Shown piece by piece: positions 1 to 26,023 of a stretch of DNA of 64,000 nucleotides (the stretch's first letter is position 1; each line of letters begins with the position of its first letter). The stretch spans positions 1 to 64,000 of the forward strand of contig CAITTG010000097.1 in the NCBI GenBank assembly GCA_903895255.1, given 5' to 3'. A program made the translations under genes and the position numbers. The DNA is from an uncultured Verrucomicrobia subdivision 3 bacterium. GTDB lineage: Bacteria > Verrucomicrobiota > Verrucomicrobiia > Limisphaerales > UBA11358. The notes below the pieces were generated by a model, which was given only the letters and a program-made list of their open reading frames with translations, ran no database searches and was not told the DNA's origin.

Positions 1-20
1 ACAGGGTAAGCGGAGGTGCT

Positions 21-236
21 GCGGGTTACGGACCCGCGCGCCGGGAAATAGCGGGCGGGAGGCGAGGGGTGGGGGGTATTTCAAATGGGAGATTGCAGAT
101 TTCAAAATGTACGGACGGGGATTTATTTAGAAACTCGTTACGTCGTTTCCTACCAGATCAGAGCGGGCGGTTGGAACTGGATTCGGGGCCGAGGACTGGT
201 TGGGAATTATTGCGGCCGAGACGGCCGCACTCCGGC
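21..236. repeat. Composite intergenic repeat, copy 1
   Basis: Three conserved blocks occur in order: a GC hairpin at 21-37 (arms GCGGGT and ACCCGC), a conserved core at 119-163 containing TACGTCGTTTCCTACCAGATC, and a perfect hairpin at 212-228 (GCGGCCG, AGA loop, CGGCCGC) followed by ACTCCGG. The same blocks in the same order occur at 2149-2290. No credible gene covers this stretch. The function is unknown; it resembles a dispersed, non-coding repeat family. Confidence 0.7.
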
Positions 237-289
237 ATGGGGGGAAGAATCATCAAATTTCAAAGTTCACTATTCAGGAGTAGAGGACG

Positions 290-315
290 ATTAGGACACA
301 TAGGACGGAGGCGAC
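290..315. repeat. Short 'taggacacataggac' direct repeat
   Basis: The word TAGGACACATAGGACGGAG carries two tandem copies of ATAGGAC/TTAGGAC. It resembles the low-complexity intergenic repeats common in this kind of genome. Only one copy is in the window, so membership in a family is an inference. Confidence 0.3.
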
Positions 316-360
316 GGACGGATTTGCGGGCGGGGCGATGCAGGATATTCCAAAGTCACC

Positions 361-405
361 AGGTAAGCGAAGGTGCTGCGGGTCACGGACCCGCGCGCCG
401 GGAAA
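361..405. repeat. Second copy of the first repeat block
   Basis: This block closely matches 4-47 (GGTAAGCG-AGGTGCTGCGGGT..CGGACCCGCGCGCCGGGAAA). The hairpin at 378-394 has a full 7-bp stem (GCGGGTC/GACCCGC). Where copy 1 has a T:G pair, this copy has C:G, so the stem is preserved despite a base change. It lies about 90 bp upstream of the first glycosyltransferase start. A degenerate partial copy is at 1833-1852. Confidence 0.65.
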
Positions 406-495
406 GGGGGGCGGGGCATTCCCGGCTTGCCGCAGAGCGGGACGGGCGGCATGATGGGTTGTCCTCCGGCTGCGCGTCAGCCCTTGCACGCAAAC

Positions 496-1584
496 ATGAA
501 GACCGACTCTGATACTGTACGTTATGCTTTTTGCCTGGTGAATCGTGCCGGCTGGAAATCCATCCGGGCGCGGCTGGAAAAGTTTCTCCCGGAAGTGGTG
601 GGCGGTCAGTGGACGTTTGTTCATTTGGAAGATTACGGCCAAACCATTGGCGCGGTGACGCGCTGGCTGGGCAAGTTTCAGATGATTCATGACGTGCTGT
701 CGGGCCGGGACGCGGCCCGGGCGGCGATCCGCGCGGGGGCCACGCGCGTTGTCTTTGGCACGTACCACAATTGTCCATGGCTGCCGCAGAAGGCCGGGGT
801 GCGTTATTTCATTTACGCGGATGCCACGATCAAACAGCTCGCCAATCTCGGTTACAGCCGGCAAAACCGGGAAAGTTCGCGCATGGCGCGGATTATTTAT
901 GGCAACGGCGTGCGCCGCCAGGCCCGGGCGGGTCACCACTTTTTTTGCATGAGCCAGTGGTATGCGCGGGCGCTGCAGGCGGAACATGGCGTGCCGCCGG
1001 CGCAGATCACAATCATTCCGCCAGCCGTGGACACGGAATACTGGAGTCCGCGCACGGGGGAGCGGCGGCCGGGACCGTTCCGGGTGGTGTTTGTGGGGGC
1101 GGATTTCCTGCGCAAAGGCGGGGATGTGCTGATGGAAGTGGCGGCGAGGCCGGAGTTTGCGGGGGTGGAATGGCATTTGGTGACCAAAAGTCCGCCGGCG
1201 ACGACGGCGGCGAACATTCATATTTACACCGGCTTTAATTCGGACGCCCATGGCTTGCGGGATTTGGTGCAGCACAGCGATGTGCTGGTGCTGCCCACGC
1301 GGGCGGATTGCAGTTCGATTGTGACGATCGAGGCCGGGGCGAGCGGGATTCCTGCCATTGCCACGCGGATGGCGGGGATTGGCGAGCTGATTGACGACGG
1401 GAAAAGTGGTTTCCTGCTGGAGGAACCGACCGTCGCGCACCTGGCGGACGCTTTGCGGAAATACGTCAATGACCCGGCGCTGGCGACCGCGCACGGTGGG
1501 GCCGCGCGGAACAAAGTGGTGGCGGAGTTCGATACGCGGGTGGTGGTGGGGCGCATTCGGGAGGCGCTGCGGACGGTGAAATGA
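496..1584 (+). CDS. Glycosyltransferase, GT4-like (GT-B fold)
   Basis: This 362-residue protein probably transfers a sugar from a nucleotide-sugar donor during surface-polysaccharide assembly on the cytoplasmic side. The C-terminal half reads as a GT-B Glycos_transf_1 domain: FRVVFVGADFLRKGGDVLM opens the domain, and DVLVLPTRADCSSIVTIEA followed by GIPAIATRMAGIGELI is the usual donor-binding E-x7-E region. The N-terminal half is the less conserved acceptor domain. The frame stays open upstream to 373, but that part overlaps the hairpin repeat and looks non-coding, so I place the start at the ATG at 496. No clear Shine-Dalgarno sequence precedes it; ATGs at 451 and 454 are alternatives. It is the first of four GT-like genes on this strand. 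The acceptor and donor cannot be told from sequence alone. Confidence 0.85.
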   Translation: MKTDSDTVRYAFCLVNRAGWKSIRARLEKFLPEVVGGQWTFVHLEDYGQTIGAVTRWLGKFQMIHDVLSGRDAARAAIRAGATRVVFGTYHNCPWLPQKAGVRYFIYADATIKQLANLGYSRQNRESSRMARIIYGNGVRRQARAGHHFFCMSQWYARALQAEHGVPPAQITIIPPAVDTEYWSPRTGERRPGPFRVVFVGADFLRKGGDVLMEVAARPEFAGVEWHLVTKSPPATTAANIHIYTGFNSDAHGLRDLVQHSDVLVLPTRADCSSIVTIEAGASGIPAIATRMAGIGELIDDGKSGFLLEEPTVAHLADALRKYVNDPALATAHGGAARNKVVAEFDTRVVVGRIREALRTVK

Positions 1585-1613
1585 GGGTTGCCGGGCGGGG
1601 GACGATGCATTTT

Positions 1614-1652
1614 GACCGCGGATGGACGCCGATAAACGCAGGTAAACACGAA
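1614..1652. repeat. Intergenic 'accgcggatggacgccgataaacg' repeat
   Basis: A run of related 10-11-nt words (gcGGATGGACGCC, GATAAACGCA, GGTAAACACG) lies just after the glycosyltransferase. A related tract is at 4461-4493. Similar 'cacggatgaacacagataaacac' tracts are widespread between genes in Verrucomicrobia and Planctomycetes. No function is known to me. Confidence 0.45.
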
Positions 1653-1905
1653 AGGTTGGGTGGTGAAGGGTGAGAAGCTGCGCGGGCGGGGATTTTAACG
1701 TTGCGGCACCCGGGGACGGGCGCGCTCCGGTGTTTGGGGAATACCACCGCGAAACAATATTATCTGGCAAGCGGCAGAATTCCTTGCGCGATGAGGCGGC
1801 AGGTTCATTTTGACGCCGACTTGCAAGGCGACGTGCTGCGGGTTGCGGACCCATAAGCGTTAACCTTAAACCTGGAGCTTGTTTTAAGGTATTGCCAAGC
1901 ATCAG

Positions 1906-2079
1906 CTCTGCGTGCTCGGCGACTCTGCGCGTGCCATGTTAGGTGCCTTGGCCGGGGGTATCCGTCGCCGCCGGCCGCCCCTTAACGATCCGCGTGCCGC
2001 CAGCTTGCATGCGTTCCAAACCCAAGTTAAGCACCAGTCCCAACGGAAATTTTCGCGCAGAGTCGCAGAGGCCGCAGAG
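1906..2079. repeat. 174-bp element bounded by a 25-bp inverted repeat
   Basis: The left end (1906-1930, CTCTGCGTGCTCGGCGACTC..) and the right end (2055-2079, GCGCAGAGTCGCAGAGGCCG..) are inverted copies matching at 22 of 25 positions. Each arm contains the CGCAGAG word. No convincing coding sequence lies between them. It could be a MITE-like relic or two independent insertions of a common CGCAGAG repeat. No target-site duplication was recognised. Confidence 0.5.
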
Positions 2080-2107
2080 AAAACCCAACCTGATTTTAAA
2101 AAATAAG

Positions 2108-2141
2108 TTAACCTGACGATTCCTTTTAATGTTCAGGTTAA
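2108..2141. repeat. Perfect 9-bp inverted repeat (TTAACCTGA / TCAGGTTAA)
   Basis: The arms at 2108-2116 and 2133-2141 are exact inverted copies separated by 16 nt. There is no T-run after it, so it is not a convincing terminator. It sits between the 174-bp element and the second composite repeat, inside the 764-bp gene-free interval 1585-2348. Confidence 0.5.
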
Positions 2142-2148
2142 TGTTTAT

Positions 2149-2290
2149 GGGTCACGGACCCGCGCGCCGGGGATTGACAAGGTTGTTCGGGGCAGGGAAC
2201 GGGCCGGATTTATTCAGAAACTCCGCACGTCGTTTCCTGCAAGATCAGGGTTTGGGCAGGATTATTGCGGCCGAGACGGCCGCACTCCGG
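2149..2290. repeat. Composite intergenic repeat, copy 2
   Basis: It repeats the order seen at 21-236: the first hairpin at 2149-2161 (GGGTC ACG GACCC), the core at 2206-2250 with the block ACGTCGTTTCCTGCAAGATC, and the second hairpin at 2267-2283, identical to 212-228, followed by ACTCCGG. It is 74 bp shorter than copy 1 because the spacers differ. It ends about 60 bp before the next glycosyltransferase start, so it may lie in that gene's leader. Confidence 0.7.
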
Positions 2291-2348
2291 GGATTGGCGG
2301 GCTGCCTTTAGCCTTTCCGCTCCGGCGGGTGCCCGTTACACTTCCACC

Positions 2349-3386
2349 ATGCCGTTGTCGCCGGACAAACATATATGGCCGCGCCTGAGTTTCATCATGC
2401 CCACGCTGAATGCGGGGGCGTTGCTGGACAATATCCTCGCGTCCATCCACCGGCAGACTTATCCGCGCGACCGTTACGAAATCATCCTGGCAGACGCGCA
2501 TTCCACGGATGACACCCGGAAAATCGCGGCCCGGTACGGAGCCATCGTGCTGGATGACAACGGGAAGAACATGGAGGAGGGCAAGCGCCTGGCGCTGCGC
2601 CAGGCCACGGGCGACTACATTGTGTTCGTGGACGCGGACAATGAAATCACGCATCCGGATTACATCGAGCTGGCGGTGGGGGCGCTGGCGGACAATCCCC
2701 AGGCGCTGGGGGTGGAAGGCTATTATCTGCCCTCGCCGAAAATGAGTTCGCTGTGCGCCTACCTCACGCACCGGTTGCACATCAGCGACCCGATTTGCTG
2801 GTTGATGAGCACCAATCCCCGGTTGCTGGCCCGGCAGGGGGAAGTGGAGCACTGGGCGCTGCCGCCGGGCACCCAGTCATATCCGCTGGGGGCCAATGGT
2901 TTTGTCTACCGGCGGGCCGATTTGGAATCGGTGCAGGCGGATGAAAAATTTCAAGACACGCACGTGGCGATGTTTTTGATGAGGAACGGCAAGCGCGAAT
3001 GGCTGCGGATCGCGGGCCGCGGGGTGCATCATTATTATGTGCAGACGATGCCCGGCTTCATCCACAAACGGCGGCGGGCGATTGTGCATTTTCTGCGGGT
3101 GCAGGAGGAAATGCCGGTGAACTGGATGAAGGAAAAGCCGCCCATTCCCCTGTGGCTGGCGGGGGTTTATTGCGCCACGTTCGTGGGGCCCCTCTGGCAT
3201 ACCGTGCTCGGCTTGGTCCGGGACCGGGACGGGCGCTGGCTCTGGCATGTGCCGGCGAGCGTGGGCAGCCTGCTCGGCAGCGCGTGGGGGGTGCTCACCT
3301 ACCGCCGGCACCGCCGGGACGGCACGGGAAATCTGATCGCCAAATTGCAAACCAAACAAGCCTTGTTGAAAACCGATGGAAAGTAA
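2349..3386 (+). CDS. Glycosyltransferase family 2
   Basis: A 345-residue GT-A-fold glycosyltransferase. The nucleotide-binding N-terminus is LSFIMPTLNAGALLDNIL at residues 13-30, ADAHSTDDT is at about 48-56, and the metal-binding DXD appears as FVDADNE with Asp95 and Asp97. The C-terminal part (about 265-325) has two hydrophobic stretches that may anchor it to the inner membrane. The frame is open from 2265, but the extra N-terminal residues fall in repeat DNA, so the ATG at 2349 is preferred. The next GT gene overlaps its end by 11 bp, implying one transcript and coupled translation. It probably acts in polysaccharide or glycan assembly; the sugar is unknown. Confidence 0.88.
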   Translation: MPLSPDKHIWPRLSFIMPTLNAGALLDNILASIHRQTYPRDRYEIILADAHSTDDTRKIAARYGAIVLDDNGKNMEEGKRLALRQATGDYIVFVDADNEITHPDYIELAVGALADNPQALGVEGYYLPSPKMSSLCAYLTHRLHISDPICWLMSTNPRLLARQGEVEHWALPPGTQSYPLGANGFVYRRADLESVQADEKFQDTHVAMFLMRNGKREWLRIAGRGVHHYYVQTMPGFIHKRRRAIVHFLRVQEEMPVNWMKEKPPIPLWLAGVYCATFVGPLWHTVLGLVRDRDGRWLWHVPASVGSLLGSAWGVLTYRRHRRDGTGNLIAKLQTKQALLKTDGK

Positions 3387-4449
3387 TCTCGAACGCTTCG
3401 GCCGCCCGACCGGCCAGCCCCGCGTCAGTATTGTGGTGCTCAATTACAACGGGTCCGGCTGGCTGCCCAGATGCTTCGCCTCCATCAAAGCCCAAACGAT
3501 GGCGGATCACATTGAAACCATTCTGGTGGACAATTGCTCCACGGATGACTCCGTGCCGGTCGCCCGGAAATTGCTGGCGGATTTTCCGATGGCGGTGATC
3601 GTGAAGAATTCCCGGAACCTGGGGTTCTGCGAGGGCAACAACACGGGGGCCCGGGTGGCGCAGGGACGCTACCTGCTGTTTTTGAACAATGACACCTGGC
3701 TGGAGCCGGATTGCATGGCACTGCTGCTGGACGGCACGGAACAGGCCGGCGCGGTGGCATCCACGCCCTATGTGCTGAATTACCCGGACAACTCGTTTCA
3801 AGATTTTGGGTTTTACGGGTTTGATATTTTTGGCCTGCCGAGTTCCTCGATGCCCGCGACCGCGACCCGGGAAATTTTCATTCCCGGCGGCTGCTCGTAT
3901 TTGATTCGCACGGATGTGTTCCAGGCGGTGGGCGAGTTCGACGCGGAATTTTTCATTTATTCGGATGATTCAGATTTGTCCTGGCGGGTGTGGATTGCGG
4001 GTCACCGCATTGCCGGGGTGTTTCCGGCGAAGGTCCACCATCGCGGGGCGGCGGGCGTGAACCCGTCCGGGGGCATACAGACGGTGGAATTCCGGACGAA
4101 TGACCGCAAACGCTTTCTGACCAACCGCAACAGCCTGCTGACGCTGCTCTACAATTGCCAGCACATCCTGCTGCTGCTGCTCATTCCGCTGATCCCGCTG
4201 TTGTTTGCAGAGTCGCTGGCGGGCAGTGTGCTGCTCCGGCGCTGGTCGTTCGTGCGCGCGAGCTTTTGGGAGCCGCTGCGCGATTGCTGGCGGTTGCGCG
4301 GGCTGATCGCCGCGCGGCGCCGGCGGGTGGCGGCGTTCCGGAAGCGCTCGGATTTCTGGATGTTGCGGTTTTTCCGGCTGCGCTTGAACCGCTGGGGGGA
4401 AATCGTGCGGGTGTTTAAACTGGGGATGCCCCGGGTGGATGCGCGCTGA
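3376..4449 (+). CDS. Glycosyltransferase family 2, rhamnosyltransferase-like
   Basis: A 357-residue GT2 protein with RVSIVVLNYNGSGWL at residues 16-30, VDNCSTDDS at 51-59, and FLNNDTWLE, whose N-N-D (104-106) replaces a strict DXD, as in many rhamnosyl/GT2 WcaE-like enzymes. GGCSYLIRTDVFQAVGEFD and FIYSDDSDLSWRVW are the conserved acceptor-side motifs. A hydrophobic segment near 255-285 (HILLLLLIPLIPLLF) suggests membrane association. The start overlaps the preceding GT gene by 11 bp. The C-terminus is very Arg-rich. It is likely part of the same polysaccharide operon. Confidence 0.9.
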   Translation: MESNLERFGRPTGQPRVSIVVLNYNGSGWLPRCFASIKAQTMADHIETILVDNCSTDDSVPVARKLLADFPMAVIVKNSRNLGFCEGNNTGARVAQGRYLLFLNNDTWLEPDCMALLLDGTEQAGAVASTPYVLNYPDNSFQDFGFYGFDIFGLPSSSMPATATREIFIPGGCSYLIRTDVFQAVGEFDAEFFIYSDDSDLSWRVWIAGHRIAGVFPAKVHHRGAAGVNPSGGIQTVEFRTNDRKRFLTNRNSLLTLLYNCQHILLLLLIPLIPLLFAESLAGSVLLRRWSFVRASFWEPLRDCWRLRGLIAARRRRVAAFRKRSDFWMLRFFRLRLNRWGEIVRVFKLGMPRVDAR

Positions 4450-25938: not shown

Positions 25939-26023
25939 GCGCATATGGTGGAATTGGCAGACACGCTACTTTGAGGTGGTAGTGCCGAAAGGTGTGCAGG
26001 TTCAAGTCCTGCTATGCGCACCA
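25939..26023 (+). tRNA. tRNA-Leu (anticodon GAG)
   Basis: An 85-nt class II tRNA. The acceptor stem pairs GCGCATA (25939-25945) with TATGCGC (26013-26019). The D-loop region is GGTGGAATTGGCAGACACGC, the anticodon stem-loop is CTACT-TTGAGGT-GGTAG with GAG, a variable arm follows, and the T-loop is TTCAAGT. The discriminator A and the CCA end are encoded. It decodes CUC and CUU. Confidence 0.95.

Follow-up and report, generated by a model that had tools for sequence, protein, structure and literature searches.

What are the hairpin-forming repeats at the start of a contig from an uncultured Verrucomicrobia subdivision 3 bacterium, and how did different hairpins come to lie side by side there? 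The DNA concerned (the window, i.e., the whole stretch analyzed) comprises the first 64 kb, positions 1 to 64,000, of contig CAITTG010000097.1 (C97; 141,744 bases), which is part of the draft genome GCA_903895255.1 (G000; 5,058,757 bases in 135 contigs, 94.9% complete, 2.54% contamination). A first-pass annotation, made from the letters of the sequence, described a composite hairpin repeat family around glycosyltransferase genes. The composite splits into three separate palindromic modules, called A, B and C here, and is very probably a mosaic of three elements of the repetitive extragenic palindrome (REP) type. Each of these would accompany, and probably serve as substrate for, a separate HUH/Y1 transposase of the REP-associated tyrosine transposase (RAYT) type, encoded on contigs C4 (for A), C120 (for B) and C51 (for C).

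The modules were recovered at the places where hairpin repeats had been described, and the sequence of the window begins shortly before the first A copy. Each hairpin is accompanied by a tetranucleotide foot, and the REP strand of the window modules, i.e., the strand on which the foot lies 5' of the hairpin, is the minus strand. The features of the repeat region are as follows.

4-45, minus strand: module A, first copy (hairpin 21-37; foot GGCG on the minus strand at 39-42)
119-161, minus strand: module B, first copy (hairpin 130-149; foot GTAG on the minus strand at 150-153)
206-235, minus strand: module C, first copy (hairpin 212-228; foot GGAG on the minus strand at 230-233)
362-405, minus strand: module A, second copy, which ends the A-B-C-A block of window positions 4-405
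1701-1730, minus strand: diverged C-type copy, recognized by eye and missed in the first pass
1825-1852, minus strand: left part of an A copy, which stops after GGACCC
1853-2148, no strand assigned: segment of 296 nucleotides (nt) interrupting the A copy, with imperfect terminal inverted repeats; not a REP module
2149-2175, minus strand: right part of the A copy (GGGTCACGGACCCGCGCGCCGGGG...), the left end of the second composite
2206-2248, minus strand: module B, second copy, with the foot GCAG in place of GTAG
2261-2290, minus strand: module C, second copy, 12 nt past B

As repeats, the first two A copies were recovered over positions 5-59 and 362-416. The two B copies are 86% identical to each other, and the two C copies (206-235 and 2261-2290) are identical. 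Together, the pieces of A at 1825-1852 and 2149-2175 appear to make up a single copy split by the 296-nt segment, which had also escaped the first-pass annotation. No further A, B or C copy with up to three mismatches is present in window positions 2291-64000.

Genome-wide, the modules are abundant, as expected of REPs, which are short palindromes of high copy number. A pattern search of G000 allowing up to three mismatches yielded 90 copies of A, 68 of B and 88 of C, and the reversed patterns, which served as a control, yielded none. The diverged C copy of the window is not part of these counts, and neither it nor the interrupted A copy enters the cluster and direction tallies below. The repetition is confirmed and is far beyond chance. 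The first-pass annotation had named two outcomes that would speak against its proposal, i.e., few copies and stems that lose their pairing as often as they keep it, and neither was found. When modules are chained over gaps of up to 250 nt, they form 171 clusters, 130 of which consist of a single module (48 A, 43 C and 39 B). What remains of the proposed composite family is its REP-type hairpins with conserved pairing, but these belong to three families, each of which also occurs alone. Module clusters sit at the starts or ends of contigs C97, C71, C98, C9, C132, C54, C89, C84, C95, C21 and C130. With so many clusters at contig ends, the A, B and C repeats probably interrupt the assembly, and the copy numbers are probably lower bounds.

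The first-pass annotation had advised looking for a REP-associated transposase, and genes of this kind were found for all three families. Nine matches were obtained when G000 was searched with the Pfam Y1_Tnp profile. A copies flank the C4 gene on either side, and the C51 gene lies between inverted pairs of C-type hairpins. A third, divergent gene on C120 was located through six B copies surrounding it. As in REP/RAYT systems, a cognate transposase gene is flanked by copies of the repeat, some of them inverted, in each of the pairs C4/A, C120/B and C51/C. The C4 and C51 proteins share 56% identity and score above the Pfam Y1_Tnp cut-off; the C120 protein is barely alignable to either. The NCBIfam model REP_Tyr_transpos gave 76 bits with the C4 and C51 proteins and 44 bits with the C120 protein, all below the curated cut-off of 80, with E-values of 1.8e-11 or better. 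Elsewhere in the genome, a second B-type gene (C122:24519-25061) encodes a protein 51% identical to that of C120, and seven further Y1-type genes (on C58, C78, C45, C122, C128, C94 and C47; loci L070-L075 and L077) have, as judged by eye, their own inverted or repeated hairpins nearby. G000 seems to hold many separate repeat-transposase pairs.

The link between the B-type gene and its hairpin extends beyond this genome. Such genes were found in 64 of the 293 genomes of the order (E ≤1e-20), and the loci of the best-scoring 30 of these 64 genomes, one per genome and 61-100% identical, were examined. B-like hairpins (up to five mismatches) are present at all 30 best-scoring loci and the exact structural motif at 26, and neither occurs in the 59 kb of the window that served as background. 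Around 30 genes of the A/C type, a single B-like copy was seen. With up to one mismatch, the B core occurs 48 times in G000, 27 times in G215, a genome of the same genus and the nearest relative encountered, and once each in 16 other genomes of the 293. A scan for the exact core in contigs of 84,980 species, which may leave out the window's own genome, gave 15 stretches in the genomes of four records, all of them named verrucomicrobial.

The proteins encoded at these loci have the hallmarks of RAYTs. In an alignment of 29 of the 30 (L272 of G288, which has an interrupted frame, was left out), H80, H82, Y139, N143 and P144 are invariant. REP_Tyr_transpos matches all 29, and Y1_Tnp matches 12 of them weakly (best E-value 0.0043). 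A profile of the B-type proteins finds the E. coli REP transposase structure (4er8) at E = 0.00023; a phmmer search of the Protein Data Bank (PDB) with a single B-type protein returned nothing up to E = 1. Foldseek, given an AlphaFold model of the C120 protein, also placed 4er8 first, at E = 0.0027 with no hit at or below 0.001, a result that is supporting only since the model is weak. Thus, an HUH motif, a catalytic tyrosine and similarity to TnpAREP are all found in the C120 protein.

The B hairpin has a well-conserved design. Read on the strand with the GTAG foot, it consists of a stem, GA, one pair, a G-T-R-A loop, the other half of the pair, GA, and the stem again. Among 55 distinct B-like copies from genomes other than G000 and G215, which were chosen by similarity to the consensus and not by pairing, the paired fraction is 0.924, against a mean of 0.775 and a maximum of 0.818 in 1000 shuffles, and 0.32-0.49 when the partner is slid by one or two positions. 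The GA/GA element is present in 55 of 55 copies, and the pair that closes the loop, C:G in 38 and G:C in 17, is never broken. The tetraloop has G at its first place in 54 copies and A at its last place in all 55, and the GTAG foot is nearly invariant. By analogy with known motifs, the GA/GA bases presumably pair in the sheared manner, and the loop presumably adopts a GNRA fold.

For the A/C-type genes, matches to the C4 protein (E ≤1e-20) were found in 22 of 40 genomes of the same genus. At 30 such loci, 126 hairpins with a G(G/T)(A/C)G foot were counted in 102,785 bases, where about 12 are predicted from a background rate (7 per 59,000) taken from 59 kb of the window alone; 25 of the 30 loci have at least two. 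The stems vary from locus to locus with their pairing kept. The same scan places the feet of A (GGCG) and C (GGAG) on the side where B has its GTAG. A GGAG foot on the left of A was also considered and is ruled out, as the scan of related genes puts the foot on the right, as GGCG. Consequently, A, B and C point in the same direction.

Within G000, each family has its own usual foot. B has GTAG in 59 and GTGG in three of its 68 copies, in agreement with the GT(A/G)G tetranucleotide located 0-2 nt 5' of the hairpin by which GTAG-type REPs are defined. The foot of A is GGCG in 82 of 90 copies (GGAG in five, others in three) and that of C is GGAG in 82 of 88 (GGCG in three, others in three), neither of which conforms to GT(A/G)G.

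Pairing is also kept within the genome. Pair 4-19 of the B stem is A:T in 59 of the 68 copies, G:C in eight and G:T in one, whilst its pair 9-14 is C:G in 36, G:C in 29 and unpaired in three, including the first copy of the window, where two G residues face each other. Likewise, pair 4-14 of the C stem is G:C in 46 of the 88 copies, C:G in 36, G:T in one and unpaired in five. The good covariation lies in these B and C stems. The first-pass annotation had based its argument for selection on a T:G to C:G change in A. That change is real, and pairing is conserved in general, but this pair is not the evidence for selection: it is C:G in 86 of 90 copies, T:G in two, G:G in one and C:A in one, and is never altered on both sides. 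As it hardly varies, it is weak evidence either way.

Intergenic hairpins with conserved stems might be kept as RNA or transcription signals, such as terminators or mRNA stabilizers, for neighboring genes, and for REPs elsewhere a function at the RNA level is assumed, according to the available text of one study (PMC3733652). However, no Rfam match falls on the modules, and the only match at the gathering score in the window is a tRNA at 25939-26020. Moreover, none of the four terminator-like sites in window positions 1-2400, a number within the shuffled expectation (2.6), lies on a module, and the gene neighbors, judged by eye, vary between clusters. As such a role would also leave the linkage to transposase genes unexplained, we consider it very improbable.

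The families differ in their distribution as well. When the first composite was compared with the 40 genomes of the same genus, matches were found in ten, weak copies below the BLAST threshold escaping such a scan, and A, B and C parts occur together only in G000. All 25 matches in G215 fall at positions 48-203 of the query, i.e., on module B and the sequence beside it. A single B-part match occurs in each of G269, G288 and G297, and a single A-part match in each of G198, G275 and G298; G267 has three C-part matches, and G292 has six plus one match to a spacer. The B-type gene of G215 is 96% identical to that of C120 and has B copies around it; its A/C-type match is 43% identical, contains a stop and is accompanied by a different hairpin. 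Repeat and gene go together among species, G215 having the B gene and matches to the B part only, as is expected from independent gene-repeat pairs.

Where modules of different families meet, their arrangement is strikingly regular. With gaps of up to 250 nt, all 47 adjacent pairs of different families, in 24 clusters, are co-directional, and 40 transitions follow the cyclic order A-B-C-A against seven others; among the 28 adjacent pairs of a single family, 17 are co-directional and 11 inverted. The clusters counted are in part copies of one another, and the numbers are thus not independent. Sixteen B-C pairs lie within 120 nt of each other, where about 0.28 are expected under random placement.

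This regularity raises the possibility that the A-B-C block is a single non-autonomous element, resembling a miniature inverted-repeat transposable element (MITE), that moves as a unit with the A and C hairpins as its ends. Indeed, the first block of the window can be aligned over about 400 nt, in the form A-B-C-A, with a block on C98. On C62, B-C-A continues up to the contig end, with the spacer between C and the second A included, and the gaps between B and C are 25-26 and 58 nt in most close pairs. A short form, with 12 nt between B and C, is shared by window positions 2206-2290 and C62. Nevertheless, such an element is unlikely to account for the modules, given that most clusters are single modules and that both the transposase gene and the species distribution differ from module to module. 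Furthermore, the A and C hairpins at its ends point in one direction, so that the block seems to lack terminal inverted repeats.

Alternatively, the common direction might reflect the replication strand, if insertion always took place into one template strand per replichore. On C49 as on C135, 11 of 11 modules have one direction. When events within 5 kb are collapsed, 66 of 103 pairs agree where 51.9 are expected, a weak excess as the maximum of 2000 shuffles was 73. When events within 20 kb are collapsed, however, 23 of 44 agree, which equals shuffling (22.1 expected), and C97 carries modules in both directions whilst its GC skew is positive throughout the window. A replichore strand bias is thus unsupported after the wider collapsing, and this explanation has very little probability.

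The preferred reading of three REP-type elements with their own transposases suggests a sequence of events. Each transposase would recognize its own hairpin as single-stranded DNA, as reported for TnpAREP of E. coli in the accessible text (PMC8266576), and would nick near it, so that single hairpins or pairs could spread through intergenic DNA. Hairpins of different families would end up side by side. Later, A-B-C-A units may have been copied as a block, by tandem duplication, by recombination between the outer A copies or by transposition with the outer hairpins as ends. More tentatively, we propose as a possibility that three single-strand transposase systems have together built a shared one-directional A-B-C-A array, which is now copied as a block, and that, in addition, a widespread verrucomicrobial B-type subfamily reads a hitherto undescribed hairpin in which a GTAG foot is combined with a covarying stem, G-A pairs in tandem, a single closing pair that also covaries and a tetraloop resembling GNRA.

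Several points weigh against the three-element reading. Cleavage and mobility of the modules are inferred rather than observed. The C120 protein has no Pfam match, and its AlphaFold model is weak (mean pLDDT, the predicted local distance difference test score, 60). The feet of A and C lie outside the published GT(A/G)G, and these modules are classed as REP-like variants and not as GTAG REPs. Three of the 30 A/C-type loci lack a footed hairpin. The genome is a draft, broken at the very repeats under study, and the mixed clusters are partly copies of one another, so that direction and order do not represent independent events. Finally, neither a clean empty site nor a target duplication was found at the two loci compared with G215.

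One of these two loci contains the second composite of the window; at the other, on C101, one flank only could be compared. At the former, similarity to G215 starts just past the composite and covers window positions 2306-4442 (81% DNA identity), including a neighboring gene. No composite was seen in the 2.5 kb upstream of the G215 orthologue, where the upstream gene is different. The composite was likely gained in the lineage of G000. The neighboring genes in the window are the following.

496-1584, plus strand: group 1 glycosyltransferase gene, outside the repeat system
2349-3386, plus strand: family 2 glycosyltransferase gene, with the orthologue in G215

The association with glycosyltransferase genes suggested in the first pass did not hold up elsewhere, since the clusters on C98, on C71 and at the C4 gene adjoin other genes, which, judged by eye from their open reading frames, are kinase-like, lipoprotein-like, histidine-kinase-like and others. 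The glycosyltransferase neighborhood looks incidental, and no role for these genes is indicated.

The 296-nt segment that splits the A copy has the termini ATAAGCGTTAACCT and ATAAACATTAACCT and is bordered on either side by GGGT..CGGACCC (13 nt, with two differences). Its first 72 nt recur with 97% identity at the end of contig C62 (L086, 1-72), where the junction with an A copy is at the same position as in the window, whereas the left flank differs. The segment may be a small element that targets the A hairpin.

How do these repeats compare with systems already described, as far as the accessible text of the papers cited here goes? GTAG REPs are already in print for Verrucomicrobia (Opitutus terrae), and REPs with RAYTs have been reported from E. 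coli, Pseudomonas and Stenotrophomonas (PMC2817692, PMC3733652, PMC8266576). The modules resemble such REP/RAYT systems, also called REPtrons, in being short palindromes with a one-sided foot, present in tens to hundreds of copies and mostly intergenic where inspected, and in having a cognate HUH/Y1 gene flanked by inverted copies. They differ in that B combines its GTAG foot with a fixed GA/GA internal loop and a G..A tetraloop, and in that the feet are mostly GGCG in A and GGAG in C, whereas the published foot is GT(A/G)G.

As in the bacterial interspersed mosaic elements (BIMEs) of E. coli and Stenotrophomonas (PMC2817692, PMC3686654), REPs and spacers form repeated units of a higher order. 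However, the basic published module consists of two inverted REPs, so that the orientation alternates; here, three families with three genes run in one direction, without any exception among the 47 mixed pairs. REPs of different families also stand next to each other in the hybrid dimers of Stenotrophomonas maltophilia, which are a minority (about 10%) of the dimers of the inverted kind, and head-tail dimers are reported to be rare (PMC3733652). REPINs, units of two inverted REPs of the same family (PMC3116915, PMC3686654), have a counterpart in the inverted homotypic pairs of G000, found chiefly at the transposase genes; the composites of the window, in contrast, are not inverted pairs.

Within the part of the REP literature covered (including PMC3733652, PMC6006769, PMC8266576, PMC3686654 and PMC2817692, with most subscription papers and the figures outside it), no REPs with GGAG or GGCG feet, no REP design with GA/GA and a tetraloop, and no one-directional arrays of three families were found. 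The recognition of REPs has been dissected in three model systems, as stated in the accessible text of PMC8266576. The natural B-type gene-hairpin pairs, at least 30 in number, in which the stem varies whilst the GA/GA loop and the ends of the tetraloop are fixed, constitute a natural mutagenesis set for the reading of a hairpin, and the one-directional mixing of three families raises the question of how distinct REP systems influence one another within a single genome. What is new is the mosaic of three systems, its single direction, the non-canonical feet and the design of the B hairpin. The kind of element is known, and nothing here alters the general view that REPs are tied to RAYTs, whilst the three-family arrangement and the B hairpin look unusual among the systems compared.

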